The notes beneath the pieces were generated by a model that saw only the letters and a program-made list of their open reading frames with translations, was not told the origin of the DNA and made no database searches. A DNA stretch of 28,268 bases from a virus, in IMG/VR virus record IMGVR_UViG_3300006033_001292, positions 1 to 28,268 of that record. One strand, 5' to 3'. The position numbers were made by a program, and so were the translations under genes. This document shows positions 1 to 14,880 of the stretch, piece by piece. Every line of letters starts with the position of its first letter. Positions within the stretch are counted from its first letter, which is position 1.

Positions 1-1209
1 ATGAAAAAGGTTACAGTTTACCCCAGAATTAATAGGGGGGATTACTCAGGGAAAGTCGGGGACGTGATTGGTTGGATAGTGGATCAAGGGAAGGTGAACG
101 GGAAGAGAAAACGAACCGTGTTCAAGACACAGAAAGAAGCGGACACACTCGCTTACAATCTGAACGTTTCCATTGAAGCGAAACAAACACAATCAGTGAA
201 TGACATTGGCGAGTTGTTGCCACTTCGTTTTGAGTTGTTGAATTGTAATCAGAAGTTGAAACAGGTTGGTGCAACATTCACACAAGCGGTTGATTTCTTT
301 CTCGCTCATACTGTCACACAGAAGGGTGTAATAACATTCAATCGTGCCACACAGTTGTATATTGAATCATGCACCAATCGTGGTTTGTCCAATCGTTACA
401 TTGATTCTTTACGTTGGTTACATTATCCCCGTTTTCTAAAAGCGTTTGATGGGGAACGTATGATGAATTCATTTACAACGGAAGAGATAACGAAACACGT
501 ATTCAGTAATTCATGGGGACCAACAACCATCATCAATTATCTACGGAACCTGAACACATTATTTAATTACTGTAAGGACAATGGATATATTGCCTTGAAT
601 CCAATTACAAAGATTGAAAGGCCCAAGGCAAAAGAAAATGAATCGTTGTTCTTAAGTATCAAGGACACAAAGAAACTGTTGATAACCGCATTGAACAACA
701 AGATGTATGATCGTTTGGCAATCAATGCTCTCGTTCTGTTTTGTGGAATACGAATTGAAGAAGCATGTAAACTGAAATGGAACGACATTGATTATAACGA
801 ATGGACAGTTTCAGTTTCGGCAAACATTGCTAAGTTGGGTATGAGACGGATAAATAATATTCCCAACTGTTGCAAGGCGTGGTTGGTATGTTGTCGCCCT
901 GCAAAAGCGAGTGATAGGGACACCCTTATTATTGATGGAAACGCAGAAGACAAACTAAGTTGGCTCCGTTCCAAGTCAGGAATTGTTTATCCTACCAACG
1001 GTTGCCGTCATTCGTTCGCCACGTATCACGTCGCGTTACATCAGAACGCAGGACAAACGGCGGTTATGATGGGACACAAAGGGAACGTTTCAACCTTGTA
1101 TAATCATTACAGAAACGCAGTGAGTAAAACGGATGGGGAACGATTCTTTAATATTGTTCCAACCCCGAAACAGATTGAACAACACAAGAAACTTGTGAAC
1201 AAGAAATAG
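1..1209 (+). CDS. int: Tyrosine recombinase (phage integrase)
   Basis: Site-specific recombinase of 402 aa expected to integrate and excise the phage genome. The layout is standard: an arm-type N-terminal region, a core-binding domain at about 110-200 and a catalytic domain at about 215-385. Catalytic residues visible are R251 (in CGIRIEE), K278 as a likely beta-hairpin lysine, R336 (in GCRHSFA), H359 (in MMGHKG) and a tyrosine at Y370 (in NHYR), with Y367 as an alternative. The His usually three residues before the second Arg is N333 here. The HYR motif and the end at FFNIVP resemble integrases I associate with the Verrucomicrobiota/Planctomycetota group (recollection, not searched). The gene begins exactly at the window edge, so its upstream signals are not visible. 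A strong terminator follows directly. Function is confident; the exact nucleophile is not. Confidence 0.95.
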   Translation: MKKVTVYPRINRGDYSGKVGDVIGWIVDQGKVNGKRKRTVFKTQKEADTLAYNLNVSIEAKQTQSVNDIGELLPLRFELLNCNQKLKQVGATFTQAVDFFLAHTVTQKGVITFNRATQLYIESCTNRGLSNRYIDSLRWLHYPRFLKAFDGERMMNSFTTEEITKHVFSNSWGPTTIINYLRNLNTLFNYCKDNGYIALNPITKIERPKAKENESLFLSIKDTKKLLITALNNKMYDRLAINALVLFCGIRIEEACKLKWNDIDYNEWTVSVSANIAKLGMRRINNIPNCCKAWLVCCRPAKASDRDTLIIDGNAEDKLSWLRSKSGIVYPTNGCRHSFATYHVALHQNAGQTAVMMGHKGNVSTLYNHYRNAVSKTDGERFFNIVPTPKQIEQHKKLVNKK

Positions 1210-1309: not shown

Positions 1310-1732
1310 GTGAAGATAAAAGGAACACACTGGGAAACATTGGATGGTGAAGACACGGTATTCAATCCATGCGGATTTGGTTTTATATATTGCATCATCA
1401 ATCTTGTTGAAGAGAAACGATACATTGGCCGCAAACAGATGTGGAACCGTGTTAAACGCAAACCACTTAAGGGCAAAAAGAATCATCGTATCAGTTCCAA
1501 AGAATCAGATTGGAAAACATACTGTGGAAGTTCCAAGGATTTGCTTGCTGATATTGAACGACTTGGTAAGAGCAACTTTCGATTCGTGATAATTGAAATG
1601 TGTAACAGTAAATGGGCATTACAATATTACGAAATGGAATGGATTCTTTTTGCAAACGCATTATTCAGGGATGATTTCTATAACAAAGAATTAAGAGTGC
1701 GAGTTGGCAAAGCTCCAAAGATGGAACATTGA
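1310..1732 (+). CDS. GIY-YIG family endonuclease (putative homing type)
   Basis: 140-aa protein with the GIY-YIG nuclease signature: FIY at 25-27, YIG at 38-40 with the catalytic Arg R41, and a Glu in YYEMEW at 108-110 that is the likely metal-binding residue. The middle segment (SDWKTYCGSSKDL at 67-79, then GKSNFRF) matches the compact GIY-YIG proteins of T4-like phages, which are free-standing endonucleases. No extra DNA-binding module is fused. The start is GTG 1310, because the ATGs just upstream are out of frame, and ATGACA sits 14 nt before it. The stop (1730-1732) lies just ahead of the endolysin. It sits between integrase and endolysin, a typical insertion spot for a selfish nuclease. 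An ordinary phage DNA-processing role is the alternative. Confidence 0.8.
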   Translation: MKIKGTHWETLDGEDTVFNPCGFGFIYCIINLVEEKRYIGRKQMWNRVKRKPLKGKKNHRISSKESDWKTYCGSSKDLLADIERLGKSNFRFVIIEMCNSKWALQYYEMEWILFANALFRDDFYNKELRVRVGKAPKMEH

Positions 1733-3539: not shown

Positions 3540-4004
3540 TCAATAGCATACATTTGCATTTCCAAAGCTGAATGTTGGTGGTTTCCGTAAATCTTTTATT
3601 TGTTCAAACAATAAACGTTCCCATTGTTCATGGATTCCTGATGTTCTGAATTCAAAACGTAAAGCATCCAGTTCTGATTTACTCGTTGTGAAATATCTCT
3701 TTATGGATTGTTCGTATGTTTCCCCTGTGATTGTTAACGTGGTGTGATCGTATGGAAACCCCGTGTGGAACTGAACGTGGTGTTGCCATTCATGTGCGAT
3801 TGTTTGCCGTGTTTGTTGTTCATCGTGTTTCCACTGATTGCTGATGACTATCAAACCTGATGACATATCCCACACCTTGTTATCTTCATCAACGTATTCA
3901 TTCCACTGGGGTTCATGGTATTCCCCGGCTCTATCCGTGAAGGTATTAAAAACAATGGGAACGTTTGGAACCCATCGTGGCGAATGTTTACGAAGGTGGT
4001 TCAT
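3540..4004 (-). CDS. Zincin-like metalloprotease-type protein
   Basis: 154 aa with an HExxH zinc-metallopeptidase signature: HEWQH at 71-75 preceded by a helix-like TRQTIA, so two zinc ligands (H71, H75) and a catalytic Glu (E72). A third ligand could come from the downstream helix ELDALRFE (111-118), the place where zincins carry Glu or Asp. No signal peptide is visible, so it should act in the cytoplasm. Phage proteins of this type include ImmA-like repressor-cleaving proteases and SprT-like proteins, but neither is specifically recognised. It overlaps the preceding gene through an ATGA stop-start junction. Position in the leftward early-type block suggests a regulatory or host-interaction role, which is inference. 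Confidence 0.6.
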   Translation of the reverse strand: MNHLRKHSPRWVPNVPIVFNTFTDRAGEYHEPQWNEYVDEDNKVWDMSSGLIVISNQWKHDEQQTRQTIAHEWQHHVQFHTGFPYDHTTLTITGETYEQSIKRYFTTSKSELDALRFEFRTSGIHEQWERLLFEQIKDLRKPPTFSFGNANVCY

Positions 4005-4348
4005 TTATTTAGATACTTAAGAAACCTTTCATATGATGGTTTCGGATCATTCAAAATGAATTCACAACACTTAATGTATTGTTGGGGTGTAATGAATTCA
4101 TTCTGGATAAAATCATCCAACGACGTTTCAACTTTAGTTTGTTTCTTGTTCTGTTTCTTCAAACAATATTCATCACGTAGTTCAAGTAATCGTTGATAGG
4201 TTCCATCAGGATATTTGATTTTTACTATTTTGAATAACCATCCTGTTTTGTGTTCAACACCCAACAATTTAATTTGTTCTGAACACCACACTTTAGCTTT
4301 AGTGGAAACCGATGCTTCAAACATCATTTGTTGTGTGATCGTTTCCAT
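4001..4348 (-). CDS. Hypothetical protein in the leftward chain
   Basis: 115 aa from the ATG at 4348 (METITQQMMF). That ATG begins one nucleotide after the TAA of the gene upstream, which is more economical than the 139-aa reading from 4420 that would overlap by 70 nt. No family recognised. The middle has a compact mixed segment (GWLFKIVKIKYPDGTYQRLLELRDEY is split by charged residues typical of a small alpha/beta fold), then a Lys/Gln-rich linker and a helical C-terminus. It is translationally coupled to the zincin-like gene by ATGA. Confidence 0.6.
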   Translation of the reverse strand: METITQQMMFEASVSTKAKVWCSEQIKLLGVEHKTGWLFKIVKIKYPDGTYQRLLELRDEYCLKKQNKKQTKVETSLDDFIQNEFITPQQYIKCCEFILNDPKPSYERFLKYLNK

Positions 4349-4349
4349 A

Positions 4350-4610
4350 TTAAATATCATTCCAAGAAATTTGTTTTGCATCCTTTGGATTAGCTTCAAC
4401 CATTTCATATCCCCGTTCATCCATCAAAATTTGATACGTACAAATATATAACGGTTGTGCTTTGTTGATGTAAGCGGTTTTCATAATGAACATCAATTGG
4501 CGATCATCTAAGTTTTCTAAATCATCGTGGATAATCTCCATCAAATCGTCCATATATTCCTTCATCATTCCATCTATCATTTCTCTGTTCTCTTCAGTTG
4601 CTGTTTTCAT
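4350..4610 (-). CDS. Small acidic hypothetical protein
   Basis: 86 aa, strongly acidic in its first half (several DD and EE pairs and Met-rich helices: GMMKEYMDDLMEI) and mixed in the second. Charge and size resemble small phage proteins that inhibit host enzymes by mimicking nucleic acid, but no family is recognised. AAGGA lies about 9 nt upstream of the ATG on its strand. It follows the polymerase-like gene by 12 nt and leads directly into the next gene (TAA, one base, ATG), so it is part of the same leftward operon. Confidence 0.6.
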   Translation of the reverse strand: MKTATEENREMIDGMMKEYMDDLMEIIHDDLENLDDRQLMFIMKTAYINKAQPLYICTYQILMDERGYEMVEANPKDAKQISWNDI

Positions 4611-4622
4611 TTTCTGTTTCCT

Positions 4623-5699
4623 TTATTTCTTTGTTACTGTTGGTTTGTGTCCGATACGTTCATTAACCGCATCAATGATCAAGTGAATGACCGTCTCTTC
4701 ATATTGTTCGGGGACGCTACAACCATCGTGTTCAGTGATGATAGGGATTGAACGTAACATGCACTTCTTTGCAACTGTGCTAATCATGATGTCCGCTTCC
4801 ATGTTCTGTAGTGTTAATGCCAAGTCTTTTTGTTTCAGTAAGAACTGATAGAGAGAGGGGAAATTCTTTTTGACGTAGTCTTCAACAGGATTGTTGTGGT
4901 TGAAATCTCCACCCGATAAAAACTTGCACCACTGAATTTTGATTTCTTCTCTGTCACCATCAATCAACTGGTAAATGTCACCCTTAAGGGCGTTGATATA
5001 CTCGGACATTTCAACGGGGTTGTTTATCTCGTTGTAAAATGAAAGACAAAGGAACGGATGGGCATTCTTGATGTCCAATGTAACGAGGGGTTCCCCGTTC
5101 AATGAAAAGATTTTCCTTCCCTCTTTCGGACAGGACAAATACGAATGGTATATGCGGTTACTGTTTTCCCCTTTCTTGAAATCAATTTCCTTTGCGAGAA
5201 ACTTCTGGGCTGATGTAACCACTCTTGCTTTTCTTGATGGTGTTTTTGTTTCAAGTTCCAACGGGGAAGTTTCAACCGTTACTTGATTCAAGGAATCGTA
5301 AATGTGTTGTTGAACGGGGTTCTGTATCACCACATTACCCGAATGTTGAACGGCCCGTTGTTGTTGATAGAAGTTCTCCACAACCTTCCCGTATCTCCAA
5401 TCTTTGCCGAGACGGTATGACTTGCTATTGCTTCCAACTTCGTATGAACCGTTTATTTCAATCAATCCCCTTGATTCCATATCAACCAAGATTTCTTTGT
5501 AAGCCTCTCGTAAATAGTTCCGTAAAATATCCGTGTGAATATTCACGAACAAATCAGGGGTTCTGTTGTTCTGTTCGTTCCTCTTGATGATTTCCGATAT
5601 GACAAAACTTTCTTTCTTGTTTAATTCCATTCCCTCTATTTTCAGGTCGGGTTTTGTCTTCACTAACTTATTGATTGAAACGTGGTATGTGTTGCTCAT
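4623..5699 (-). CDS. Winged-helix plus polymerase-palm-like protein (putative replication protein)
   Basis: 358 aa, first gene of the leftward operon. The N-terminal part (about 25-105) reads as a winged helix: a helical YKEILVDMESRGLIEI segment followed by a strand-turn SYEVGSNSKSYRLG. The C-terminal part has motifs that line up with PolA/T7-RNA-polymerase palms: LVTLDIKNAHP at 205-215 (motif A, D209), REEIK at 250-254 (motif B R-x3-K), an NMEADIM helix at 299-305 (like the QGTAADI element) and ITEHDGCSVP at 321-330 (motif C, HDG with D325). I recall similar uncharacterised phage and plasmid proteins ending in IHDS. There is no exonuclease or full fingers/thumb. It is the only replication-like gene seen. 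The start is ATG 5699; a TTG 15 nt upstream is possible. Role in replication or transcription is inference. Confidence 0.6.
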   Translation of the reverse strand: MSNTYHVSINKLVKTKPDLKIEGMELNKKESFVISEIIKRNEQNNRTPDLFVNIHTDILRNYLREAYKEILVDMESRGLIEINGSYEVGSNSKSYRLGKDWRYGKVVENFYQQQRAVQHSGNVVIQNPVQQHIYDSLNQVTVETSPLELETKTPSRKARVVTSAQKFLAKEIDFKKGENSNRIYHSYLSCPKEGRKIFSLNGEPLVTLDIKNAHPFLCLSFYNEINNPVEMSEYINALKGDIYQLIDGDREEIKIQWCKFLSGGDFNHNNPVEDYVKKNFPSLYQFLLKQKDLALTLQNMEADIMISTVAKKCMLRSIPIITEHDGCSVPEQYEETVIHLIIDAVNERIGHKPTVTKK

Positions 5700-6016
5700 A
5701 TGAATACATATCAACGAGCAAACCCAAAAAGACGTTATAAAAAGCGATTGTTTGTAACTGGTTGATAGTGAATTGAATTCAGTTCCAGTTATAATATATG
5801 TTTACATTGTAAAGAATCGCCGTTTTTCATAGGGGAAACCAAGTCGAAAACCAAACTGGGTGAGACATATTACTGCTCCACTGTGTCTTCTCTGTCTCTC
5901 TGTGTCTTTTTCTGGGACTAAGAAGGCAGAACCGCTTTCCTTTTCTTGGACACGCAAACCGATTATTATAAGAAAATATATATACGGTTTGGGAAAGCTG
6001 AACCCTATTTATAGAT
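5700..6016. promoter_or_regulatory. Divergent early control region
   Basis: 317 nt between the leftward operon and the first rightward gene. Visible elements are TAACTGG/CCAGTTA inverted arms at 5755-5761 and 5785-5791; a TATAAT word at 5790-5795 touching the right arm; a 13-nt palindrome TTTACA-T-TGTAAA at 5801-5813; a pyrimidine-rich tract at about 5885-5915; and inverted AAACCG/CGGTTT words flanking an AT-rich segment at about 5956-5990, which is the likely rightward -10 area. The arrangement is what a lysis-lysogeny or early switch needs, with operators between two opposing promoters, but no repressor gene is recognised and the promoters are not consensus. Confidence 0.5.
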
Positions 6017-7979: not shown

Positions 7980-8029
7980 GTGAAGAGAAAACAATCTTCA
8001 TGAAACAAACAGACCAAGGAATAAAAGTT

Positions 8030-10559: not shown

Positions 10560-11171
10560 ATGAATCAGTTAAATATCAGCAGCAATAGCAAGGTAACAAT
10601 ATCAGAAATCGGGTTGGTAGTTCACAAAGAACTAACCGACAAAGAGCACAAACAACTATGGGAATCGTTGCTAAGTGCTGAAAAGGGAATCCGTTGGTGT
10701 CTGGGTGACTACCTGAACCATTGTGAAGATGTGGGAAGGGGATACGATTCGTTAATGGAATCTACAGGTTATTGCCGTGGTTCCCTTAAAGAAAGTAAAT
10801 CCCTGGCAAAGAGATTCCCCATTGAACAGCGTAATAAAAATCTTACGTATTCATTCCACAAGGAAGCATTGGCTGAATGTAAGGGGGATACTCAAGTAGC
10901 AATTGGTTGCTTGGATTATGCCGAGAAGAACAACCTTACCATTTCAGAAATGAGAAAAAACATCAGAACCTTACACAGTGCATCCAACAACAACCCAACA
11001 CCAAAGCCAGAACATGAATCGGACAAGGTGGATAAAGTATTCTGTGAAGTAGTACGGAATCTTCAATCAGTCACAACACAATTAGGAAAGGTGAAGCTCT
11101 CACGTAAACAATATGAAACGATAATTCTTATGACAGACGGGATACAAGACCAGTGTGAGGAATCGTTATGA
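10560..11171 (+). CDS. ParB/KorB-like DNA-binding-type protein
   Basis: 203 aa with AAGGA about 9 nt upstream of the ATG. The central pattern (WCLGDYLNHCEDVGRGYDSLMESTGY...SLKESKSLAKRFP, then LTYSFHKEALAE and AEKNNLTISEMRKNIR) recalls proteins in which a helix-turn-helix reads DNA and whose sequence runs W-LGD...R-Y...LS-HH-E-A...ELR, seen in phages and actinobacterial plasmids. The C-terminal 60 residues are a polar linker and a helix. Function in partition, replication or regulation is possible. The family link is by pattern memory and of moderate confidence. It is ATGA-coupled to the endonuclease gene behind it. Confidence 0.5.
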   Translation: MNQLNISSNSKVTISEIGLVVHKELTDKEHKQLWESLLSAEKGIRWCLGDYLNHCEDVGRGYDSLMESTGYCRGSLKESKSLAKRFPIEQRNKNLTYSFHKEALAECKGDTQVAIGCLDYAEKNNLTISEMRKNIRTLHSASNNNPTPKPEHESDKVDKVFCEVVRNLQSVTTQLGKVKLSRKQYETIILMTDGIQDQCEESL

Positions 11172-11908
11172 GAAAAGGGCAAAAACATAGTGCAGAAACC
11201 CGTGAAAGAATTAGTTCCAAAACAAAAGAAATAATGACACCAGAACATCGTGAAAGATTAAGTGTTGCACAAAAAGGGAAGAAACTTTCTACAGAACATC
11301 GTGATAAAATAAGTTCCGCAGTAAAAGATTCGTGGACACCTGAACGACGGAAAAATAGGAGTGTTGCTTACTTGGGTTCCAATCATCCGAGATTTGGCAA
11401 GAATCATAGCAAAAAAAGTATTGCTAGAATGAGTGCCGCAAAAAAAGGAAAGAAACATAGTGCCGTATCCCGATCAAAAATGTCTGAATCACACAAAGGA
11501 ATCAAACACACAGAAGAAACAAAACGGAAAATGAGTATCGCAAGTAAACAACGTATCACAGAATCCGATACGATTTGTTTGAACTACAACAAAACCGCTT
11601 GTCGTATCTTTGACGTGATCAACAAACGTTTAAATGTTAACGGTCTTCATGCTCTGAACGGTGGCGAGAAAGTAGTGGATGGAAGATATGCGGTTGATTA
11701 CTACTGTGAAGATTTAAAGCTGATAATCGAATGGGATGAACCACATCATTTTACAGAAAAACAACGTATCAATGATGAATTCAGACACAAACAAATTTTA
11801 ATGAGTCTGCCGAAAGATTGGATGATCTTACGATGGAACGAAAAAGCAGATGATTGGAGAGAAGAAAAAGAATTCGCACAGTGTCACACAGACATGTTGC
11901 CGTTTTAA
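11168..11908 (+). CDS. Homing endonuclease with NUMOD3 repeats and an EDxHD-type nuclease domain
   Basis: 246 aa. The first 130 residues are at least four NUMOD3-type repeats, each with an HS/ST-x-E-x-R-x-x-x-S-x-A-x-KG pattern, the DNA-contact module of homing nucleases. The remainder (about 165-225) carries the EDxHD signature of the VSR-like homing nucleases: DGRYAVDYY, then LIIEWDEPHHF (E188, D190, H193/H194) and D203 with R206, ending with the WxILRW strand typical of the fold. Shine-Dalgarno GAGGA precedes ATG 11168, which is in an ATGA junction. It makes a site-specific break and spreads by repair; the insertion may be recent. A third nuclease family beside the HNH and GIY-YIG genes. 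Confidence 0.85.
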   Translation: MRKGQKHSAETRERISSKTKEIMTPEHRERLSVAQKGKKLSTEHRDKISSAVKDSWTPERRKNRSVAYLGSNHPRFGKNHSKKSIARMSAAKKGKKHSAVSRSKMSESHKGIKHTEETKRKMSIASKQRITESDTICLNYNKTACRIFDVINKRLNVNGLHALNGGEKVVDGRYAVDYYCEDLKLIIEWDEPHHFTEKQRINDEFRHKQILMSLPKDWMILRWNEKADDWREEKEFAQCHTDMLPF

Positions 11909-12449: not shown

Positions 12450-13082
12450 ATGAGTAAGAACAAGAAATGGAAACGAACGTATCCAGTGATGACAACAATC
12501 TTTGATACTAACATTCAAAGTTTGTACAAAGCAAACAAAGCTGGAATCAACTTGGATGATGATACGGCCGTAAAAACGTATTTGGAAACTGTAAAGAGGC
12601 GGGGAAGAGGGAACCCATTATTGAAACAAAAACGTATTGGTGAACCAATCAAGATTGAACGTGTGGATGGTGAAGGAATGGAAACACAAATCAAACGGTT
12701 ATCCACCATAGCGAACTCTTTGTATGAACAATACATAACGAGTAAAGGAAAAGGAGAAGACGGAACGGCATCTTTAATTTTATCAGACTTCAACAAAGTA
12801 ACTGAATCCCTACGCAAACTAGAAGTGGATAACCCAAAGGTGAATGAATTAAACCGTAATGTGGTTTCAGTGGATGACATGGTTTCAACATACAATCAAA
12901 TGCTGATGCAGTTCAATGAAGACTTAGATGCAATTCCTGGACGTATCGCAGATAAGTGTTTGGGCATGGATAAAATCGGAATGATAGAGAACGCGAAAGT
13001 AGAAATAGCAGAAGTGAAACGAAGGTTACACGACATAGACTGGGAAACTGTATTGGATGAAAGCAAACGTAGTAGCGAATAA
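12450..13082 (+). CDS. terS: Terminase small subunit (putative)
   Basis: 210 aa located directly before the large terminase, as for lambda Nu1. The C-terminal half carries the pattern of small terminases: LRKLEVDNPKVNELNRNVVSVDDMV, then LDAIPGRIADKCL and a final helix of AEVKRRLHDI, which should dock the large subunit and form the ring. A DNA-binding helix-turn-helix is not obvious in the N-terminus, which is basic instead (KRRGRGNPLLKQKR). The gene overlaps the large terminase by 26 nt, a close coupling. Function is inferred from position and C-terminal pattern. The start at 12450 has a one-mismatch TTGACA (TTAACA) 17 nt upstream. Confidence 0.7.
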   Translation: MSKNKKWKRTYPVMTTIFDTNIQSLYKANKAGINLDDDTAVKTYLETVKRRGRGNPLLKQKRIGEPIKIERVDGEGMETQIKRLSTIANSLYEQYITSKGKGEDGTASLILSDFNKVTESLRKLEVDNPKVNELNRNVVSVDDMVSTYNQMLMQFNEDLDAIPGRIADKCLGMDKIGMIENAKVEIAEVKRRLHDIDWETVLDESKRSSE

Positions 13083-14880
13083 AATAATTAAAAGAATATT
13101 CAAACCAAAGGAAAAGTTAAAACCTTCTGTATGGTGTGAACGTAATGTTAATTTAAGTAAGCGTGTTTCAGATGATACGGGACGATTCGATTTAGATCGT
13201 ACCCCTTACATGCGGAAAATATACGACGCTTTAGCAGACCCCCGCATACGTAAAATAGTTTTGATGAAGTCTGCACAGGTTGGTGCATCCCTGTTGTTCG
13301 CAAATGCAATTCTATATTTTGTTTCAAACGAAACTTACAACATGTTGTATGTCTCGCCTTCTACAAAAAAGGCAAAGGAGTTTAAACAAATCAAATTAGA
13401 CCCGATGTTGTCACGGTGCATTCCAGCAAAACGAATGTTGCCGAACGATGAAGACTTCATAAGAAACGAGTACATTGAATTTCAGTCAGGACAATTACAC
13501 TTAGTTGGTGCCGGTTCTCCAGCTAACCTTGCATCCATTTCCGTTCCTATCTGTTTGATAGATGAAGCTGATAAGCTTCAACAAGAATACGAAACAAAGG
13601 GGGAAACGGATTCCATATCCTTAGCAGAACAAAGAACTGCAAATTATCCCCTGTCTAAAAAGATTCTAATTGCATCAACACCCACGACCAAAGATGGAAG
13701 TAAAATACTAAAGGAGTATCAAAAGGGTAGTCAGCACAAATACCATTTGCGTTGTCCCCATTGTGAAAAACAATTTGTTCTCCGGTTTGATATGCTCAAG
13801 GGTGCAGAGAACTGTAAGCGAGAAGATAAAACATACGACTTAGATAAAGTCGCACAGTACGCACATTGTGAGTGTCCAAACTGTAAGGGAAAGATTTACG
13901 AGAAGGATAAAGCGAAAATGGTATTAGAAGGGGAATGGATTGCCACTTCTGAAAACTATTCAAAAGAAACATTATCATTTCACATATCACGTTTATACAG
14001 TTTGAAAATTCCTTGGTGGCATTTGATACGAGATTATTTAGTTGCCAAAGATGACCCGATTAAACTGCACGACTTTTACAATGGACACTTGGGCGAACCA
14101 TGGGAAGAACGGGCACAAACAACTAAAGAATCAGATGTAACATCGTTCTTGGCATTGTCTCCAAAGTATCAACGGAACACCTTACCTGTAGTTCCATCAA
14201 TGATACTGATGGCGTGTGATACACAGGACGAATCTTTCTGGTACACAATCACTGCGATTACAAAAGACTTCAAAGCTTATGTATTGGATTACGGGCAAGT
14301 ATCAGTTGAAGAAGAACTGGTACGATTATCAAACCAAGTGTACGAACACGATGGAAAAAAATACGGAATTGATAAAGCAATCATTGACTCAGGTGGACAC
14401 AGAATACTTGCTGTTCTTGATTTGTGCCTTGCAACAGGAGAATTCTTTATGCCATGTCGTGGTGTTACTGGTCAATTCTTCACACACAAAATAGAAAGTG
14501 ATAAACTGCACAAGGGTGTTTACATAAATCGTTTTGTTGTCGGGGACTATCTATACAAAAACAAACTGTTCACCACACTGATTAAAGTAAAAGACTTCAG
14601 TTCAATGGCTTTGTATTTCCCTGAAGGTTCAATAATTGATCCAATTTTAATTCGCCACTTGATGTCGGAAAAGAAAGTTACAATCAAAGGTGAAACAAAG
14701 TGGGTTGAAGTTTACAAAGATAACCACGTTGCCGACTGCTTGAAATACACGATTTGTTTTTTCGATTTCTATTCCCCGTTAATACGTTTGGATTCGATCA
14801 AGGGAACACCAGAAGAAGTTACGGAACAGACACAAGAAACTTCTGCACCAGAAGTCTATTACCCCTCTAATAGTTGGTAA
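13057..14880 (+). CDS. terL: Terminase large subunit, lambda gpA family
   Basis: 607 aa motor that packages DNA into the prohead. Walker A-like loop KSAQVGAS at 71-78, Walker B CLIDEAD at 166-172, ASTPT motif at 206-210, and a zinc-like knuckle with CPHC at 233-236 and a CxCPNC group at 271-276, which is characteristic of gpA-like terminases (Terminase_GpA, Pfam). The C-terminal nuclease domain has acidic residues at D388 (ACDTQ), D444 (IIDSGG) and D560 (HVAD). The length is close to lambda gpA (641). Family assignment suggests cos-type packaging. It overlaps terS and is followed by two hairpins before the gpW-like gene. Confidence 0.93.
   Translation: MKANVVANKIIKRIFKPKEKLKPSVWCERNVNLSKRVSDDTGRFDLDRTPYMRKIYDALADPRIRKIVLMKSAQVGASLLFANAILYFVSNETYNMLYVSPSTKKAKEFKQIKLDPMLSRCIPAKRMLPNDEDFIRNEYIEFQSGQLHLVGAGSPANLASISVPICLIDEADKLQQEYETKGETDSISLAEQRTANYPLSKKILIASTPTTKDGSKILKEYQKGSQHKYHLRCPHCEKQFVLRFDMLKGAENCKREDKTYDLDKVAQYAHCECPNCKGKIYEKDKAKMVLEGEWIATSENYSKETLSFHISRLYSLKIPWWHLIRDYLVAKDDPIKLHDFYNGHLGEPWEERAQTTKESDVTSFLALSPKYQRNTLPVVPSMILMACDTQDESFWYTITAITKDFKAYVLDYGQVSVEEELVRLSNQVYEHDGKKYGIDKAIIDSGGHRILAVLDLCLATGEFFMPCRGVTGQFFTHKIESDKLHKGVYINRFVVGDYLYKNKLFTTLIKVKDFSSMALYFPEGSIIDPILIRHLMSEKKVTIKGETKWVEVYKDNHVADCLKYTICFFDFYSPLIRLDSIKGTPEEVTEQTQETSAPEVYYPSNSW

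Follow-up and report, generated by a model that had tools for sequence, protein, structure and literature searches.

The TV-Pol class is a minimal class of polymerases with a Pol A-type palm, found in viruses and in elements that carry an integrase or resolvase (Iyer, Abhiman & Aravind 2008, PMC2579912). TV-Pols that stand alone or bear an N-terminal domain, with no D5 helicase, have been described, and recombinases were noted as neighbors of a subset of them by the same authors (PMC2579912). A second group, divPolA2, corresponds to phrog_4756 and was presented in the 2024 study "DNA polymerase swapping in Caudoviricetes" (PMC11348598). PolA-SSB primases occur in SCC elements (PMC10061031, PMC7581432), where CcPol-MP carries out de novo DNA priming that depends on the active site and needs the OB-fold partner MP (PMC7581432). 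CcPol-MP is the one TV-Pol-type enzyme shown to prime, most others being biochemically uncharacterized. In this study, we analyzed a 28,268-nucleotide stretch of viral DNA (hereafter, the window, meaning the whole stretch) in which a TV-Pol-like candidate primase-polymerase of the PolA superfamily is encoded at positions 4623–5699 on the minus strand. Its novelty lies in being the sole recognizable replication gene that a small temperate tailed phage carries, and in the links of its relatives with PolA and with a late sigma factor.

The reading frame runs from an ATG at position 5699 down to 4623 and encodes 358 residues. A preliminary description of this DNA did not give the strand; the plus-strand frame of the same interval contains 18 stop codons. 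The motifs named in that description were all located where it had placed them, namely LDIKNAHP with D209, R250-x3-K254, the MEADIM helix with M300 and H324-D325-G, and its "just over 100 residues" between motifs A and C proved to be 116 (D209 to D325). It was also right that the 358-residue protein has no exonuclease domain. Its remark on size, that this would be among the smallest of these enzymes, does not set the protein apart: relatives measure 350–500 residues, and the class was called the minimal unit of the superfamily in 2008. Single-sequence searches with the polymerase against Pfam, NCBIfam and PDB sequences returned nothing useful, including no match of Pfam DNA_pol_A to the protein, and profiles fared no better, with no significant match among PDB sequences. 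The first search identified phrog_4756 (E 7.2e-8), a PHROG without an assigned function, a protein of a 735-kb phage with 25% identity over 91% of the length and a related viral protein of 940 residues.

Conservation was assessed in an alignment of 28 diverse homologues with ~20% identity to the query. The preliminary description had proposed checking the two putative metal aspartates in homologues, and D209 and D325 turned out to be the only two invariant columns; both are also kept in 12 further homologues from other bacterial classes. Y95, R182, R195, P215, Y243, K254, P281, Q298, E301 and H324 are conserved in at least 90% of the 28 rows. Along the minus strand, R182 (5154–5156), which lies beside a strand at residues 183–185 in the structural model, is the conserved arginine of the hairpin before motif A that characterizes TV-Pols. 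It is followed by motif A, DIKNAHP (5055–5075), with the metal aspartate D209, by fingers motif B, R250-x3-K254 (4938–4952), by a helix with the pattern QxxE(A/S) containing Q298 and E301 (4791–4808), and by motif C, H324-D325 (4725–4730), with the second metal aspartate. R250 is replaced by lysine in part of the family, and the extra fingers aspartate of TV-Pols was not found. In one aligned relative from Verrucomicrobiae (L095), His324 is lost and motif C reads YDG, so some copies of the polymerase may be degenerate. Comparison by hhalign with nine Pol I-type sequences (E 2.9e-5, probability 74%) brought motifs A, B and C into register, with DIKNAHP set against DYSQIEL and R250-x3-K254 against the Pol I RxxxK. 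The motif A glutamate of Pol I acts as a steric gate; at this position the window protein has H214 and most relatives have Q.

A PolA-type palm is present in this 358-residue protein according to structure prediction, which had been suggested as a check on the preliminary description. The full AlphaFold2 model, built with 16 alignment rows, has an overall pLDDT of 78, ~90 or more in the palm, and a pTM of 0.63. Residues 115–358 (4626–5357, minus strand), which comprise a thumb remnant, fingers and palm, aligned in VIA-align 2 with the Bacillus Pol I large fragment at Z 14.2 (234 residues, 3.1 Å) and with mitochondrial RNA polymerase at Z 14.1 (220 residues), where the best Z is typically 7–8 for models without a clear match and 14 for mostly helical models. 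All 50 of the 50 VIA-align matches listed were Pol A-superfamily enzymes. The top PDB matches from Foldseek were Pol I and T7 DNA polymerase, and those in BFVD included a phage "putative DNA polymerase I" and the DNA replication protein of the Zamilon virophage (E 8.1e-6 for the latter). Neither a fold lacking the palm nor variable aspartates, the two outcomes that would have refuted the preliminary description, was thus observed. Compared with the bacterial Pol I/T7 RNA polymerase superfamily at large, the window protein has the same type of palm and the same motifs A, B and C, but ~115 residues between the aspartates, a reduced thumb and no exonuclease domains. The two-helix thumb of TV-Pols has a possible counterpart in helices 104–118 and 128–138 ahead of the palm, with low model confidence at 102–122.

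On shared features, we place the polymerase with the TV-Pols of mobile elements and do not regard it as a new kind. Those features are an RRM-type palm with two aspartates, the hairpin arginine and the lack of a nuclease, as well as a habitat in viruses and integrase/resolvase elements of Bacteroidetes, Verrucomicrobia and Alphaproteobacteria; the RxxxK in the fingers of the window protein and the structural match to the Zamilon replication protein may be further likenesses. It differs in that Pfam and PHROGs recognized no D5 helicase, fused or adjacent, in the window, in that the N-terminal domain is predicted to be winged-helix-like and not all-helical, and in that the element is a tailed phage. 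The record of phage Ma-LMM01 gave no match to the polymerase profile. The likeness to divPolA2 lies in a common palm (hhalign 98.5%, E 3.6e-15, 188 columns, with an alignment that covers the palm only), the lack of an exonuclease and of a normal thumb, an unassigned N-terminal domain and a similar closeness to Pol I and mitochondrial RNA polymerase. However, divPolA2 forms a separate clade in our tree, occurs in phages of 80–140 kb, lies beside a regular PolB in barbaviruses and has no described integrase link. Vibrio phage ICP1 (L113) carries a divPolA2 protein that is annotated only as hypothetical. CcPol-MP, like the window protein, is an exonuclease-less PolA-type enzyme of an integrating element, but CcPol lies much nearer to Pol I and requires MP.

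The claim that a winged helix is fused to the palm held in part. In the full model, residues ~24–100 (5400–5630, minus strand) follow the order β-β-H-β-H-β-β by DSSP at a pLDDT of ~70, while the N-terminus folded alone reached a pLDDT of only 47 and was uninformative. The region contains a wing motif, SYxxGxxSxxYRL, whose Y95 is among the residues conserved in at least 90% of the alignment, so that the wing is conserved together with the palm. A predicted winged helix at the N-terminus is thus moderately supported, and perhaps it binds an origin.

The window is a near-complete, trimmed prophage that lies beside pheS in the tRNA-Tyr gene of a probably verrucomicrobial host. It starts at the ATG of an integrase and ends at a stop codon, which identifies it as a provirus record trimmed at gene ends. 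A second record (G001), 100% identical to window positions 8006–28268, continues past the right end into more small genes, half a tRNA-Tyr and then host pheS, rplT and infC (names assigned by reading the translations). The end genes that it adds showed no replication match. The right end of the prophage splits the tRNA-Tyr in the anticodon loop (L007:2180–2300, half-gene read by eye), while the closest PheS relative has its pheS gene followed by an intact tRNA-Tyr, which places the phage in the anticodon loop of this gene. That the host is probably verrucomicrobial is judged from its PheS, which is 63–64% identical to those of a Verrucomicrobiales MAG and of one labelled Blastochloris.

A tyrosine integrase (1–1209, plus strand; PF00589 1.8e-8, phrog_1 5.4e-33) occupies the left end of the prophage. 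The polymerase gene is followed on its own strand by an ORF of 86 residues (4350–4610) without a PHROGs match that is possibly co-transcribed with it, an ORF of 139 residues (4001–4420) with no family at threshold and an HExxH metalloprotease-like ORF (3540–4004; phrog_87 8.9e-4). Upstream, a divergent intergenic region (5715–6016) is a candidate promoter or operator; iterons were sought near the polymerase gene and none was found. A GpA-type terminase large subunit (13057–14880, plus strand; phrog_15 9.2e-120) makes the element a tailed phage, whose terminase, portal, protease, capsid and tape measure are of the usual kind. The polymerase had been called the only replication candidate, and indeed no helicase, primase or other polymerase was recognized by Pfam or PHROGs among the non-structural ORFs of the window. 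No MP-like gene or Cch-type helicase was found there either, the 86- and 139-residue ORFs matching no family.

A sister prophage occupies ~0.6–24 kb of contig C82 in the Verrucomicrobiae genome G379, with a GC content of 46%, and adjoins a tRNA-Gly. It shares the layout of the window, with an integrase, a polymerase on the opposite strand, a GpA terminase, a portal, a capsid and a tape measure. By tblastn, only four genes of the window and the sister are alike, i.e., the polymerase (28%), TerL (26%), the major capsid protein (25%) and the tape measure (30%). The polymerase is the only recognizable replication gene in the sister prophage too, and its gene overlaps that of a T4-gp55-like late sigma factor (L081:2125–3587), hinting at replication-coupled late transcription. 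The gp55-like sigma factor has no counterpart in the window. A family of homing-endonuclease-like genes, phrog_447/7363, occurs in both prophages.

Expansion from the first relatives led to kin of the polymerase in phages of 595–735 kb and at 24 viral-contig loci. Profile searches detected the family in 19 of 384 Verrucomicrobiae, in 29 of 395 genomes from the class to which a Bacteroidales MAG belongs (Bacteroidia) and in 22 of 385 from that of an Alphaproteobacteria MAG, i.e., in 5–7% of the sampled genomes of these classes. An A3 pattern scan of genome contigs had found none, probably due to too strict a pattern given the many relatives detected by profile, and searches of plasmids yielded no relatives. 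The window protein belongs to no well-supported subgroup in the tree. A tyrosine integrase occurs within the fetched stretch at 12 of the 18 Verrucomicrobiae loci, compared with ~0.02 expected per 14-kb stretch from the background in those genomes (146 per ~86 Mb); in the two other classes, 9 of 12 loci have one beside the gene. Serine recombinases are also found as neighbors, and a D5 helicase is absent from the 25 commonest neighbor families listed. The links to PolA come from two large phages. In one, the polymerase gene slightly overlaps a true polA gene (L013:1294–3737; PF00476 1.2e-19), and in the other (L002:3766–6588) a related palm shares one protein with a second, PolA-like region that was not called by Pfam and was recognized from its motifs TGRPS, DYSAFHP and YDS. 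Such joining to PolA is as expected of a priming partner. Another relative, of 762 residues, has a large N-terminal extension (L077:7192–9477).

We consider it probable that this protein is a minimal primase-polymerase of the A superfamily that starts the replication of a small temperate tailed phage. The palm fold, the conserved catalytic residues, the status of sole recognizable replication gene and the integrase linkage all point to a replication starter, and the priming role is suggested by the de novo DNA priming of its class relative CcPol-MP. The N-terminal winged helix would bind phage DNA, probably at the origin, and the palm would then synthesize a short de novo primer, which by analogy with SCCmec CcPol-MP would most likely be DNA, before host helicase and replicase take over. 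Against a replication starter stand the lack of an adjacent helicase and of an identified OB-fold partner, whereas CcPol primes only with MP, and the lack of iterons near the gene. In giant phages and PolB phages, where this polymerase or divPolA2 is additional to a normal polymerase, repair or another role is possible. With H or Q in place of the steric-gate glutamate, an RNA product is conceivable as well. In a stronger version, small temperate tailed phages would have this as their only replication gene, and the one protein would start replication with an origin-binding winged helix and a de novo priming palm, with no phage helicase or SSB partner; this is conceivable and we hold it only tentatively.

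A role in repair, gap filling or translesion synthesis, for example a Pol I-like activity for hosts without Pol I, seems unlikely. It draws on the DNA_pol_A matches found in just 27 of 93 sampled Verrucomicrobiae genomes, in line with the loss of Pol I already reported for many Verrucomicrobia (PMC12926913), and on the divPolA2 relatives that coexist with a replicative PolB and have been suggested to be repair enzymes (PMC11348598). However, the family is also common in Bacteroidia and Alphaproteobacteria, no nuclease partner was found, and the integrase linkage and the status of sole replication gene fit replication of the element better. It is more doubtful still that the polymerase serves integration, excision or transposition of the element and not its general replication. 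Tyrosine integrases and serine recombinases are recurrent neighbors, as for the TV-Pol subset of Iyer et al., yet ordinary tyrosine integrases require no DNA synthesis, and in the giant-phage relatives the stretch read contains none.

The preliminary description also raised a small single-subunit RNA polymerase, which would transcribe phage genes and tie in with TTGACA elements; we regard this as very unlikely. The fold is equally close to mitochondrial RNA polymerase, the Pol I steric-gate glutamate is replaced, and the same alternative was offered for divPolA2 (PMC11348598). However, no promoter-recognition or RNA-exit domains of the T7/N4 type are apparent in the 358 residues, many integrase-linked loci with the gene are not shown to be phages, and the late sigma factor of the sister phage implies use of the host RNA polymerase. 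The supposed TTGACA link found no support either, since the spacing of the sites is not that of T7-type promoters and nothing ties them to the protein. A plain RepA-like DNA-binding initiator with a catalytically dead palm, for which the winged-helix-like N-terminus and weak Foldseek/BFVD matches to wHTH and Rep proteins could be cited, is highly improbable because conservation within the family is among the highest at the metal aspartate pair, R182, K254 and H324.

With an enzyme close to the lower size limit of its class, as the sole recognizable replication gene of a compact prophage, and with a widespread family that is joined to a real PolA in giant phages, it becomes directly testable whether a bare PolA palm can start DNA synthesis alone. 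This family would also gain a name where PHROGs and Pfam leave a blank.

TTGACA occurs eight times in the window (positions 1736, 6795, 14903, 17669, 19117, 20673, 21760 and 26315), compared with ~37 expected, or 11 under a higher-order model, the latter being a modest depletion. All copies lie on the gene-sense strand, mostly 0–18 nt before start codons, and a ninth in the extension (L007) behaves in the same way. The idea of a promoter element was dropped; in appearance, TTGACA resembles a signal for translation or processing more than a −35 box. Homing-endonuclease-like genes were observed at window positions 1310–1732 and 11168–11908 and at L081:5087–5428. The palindromes GATC, CCGG, GTAC, TCGA and GCGC are strongly depleted across the window, as if restriction or methylation sites were being avoided.
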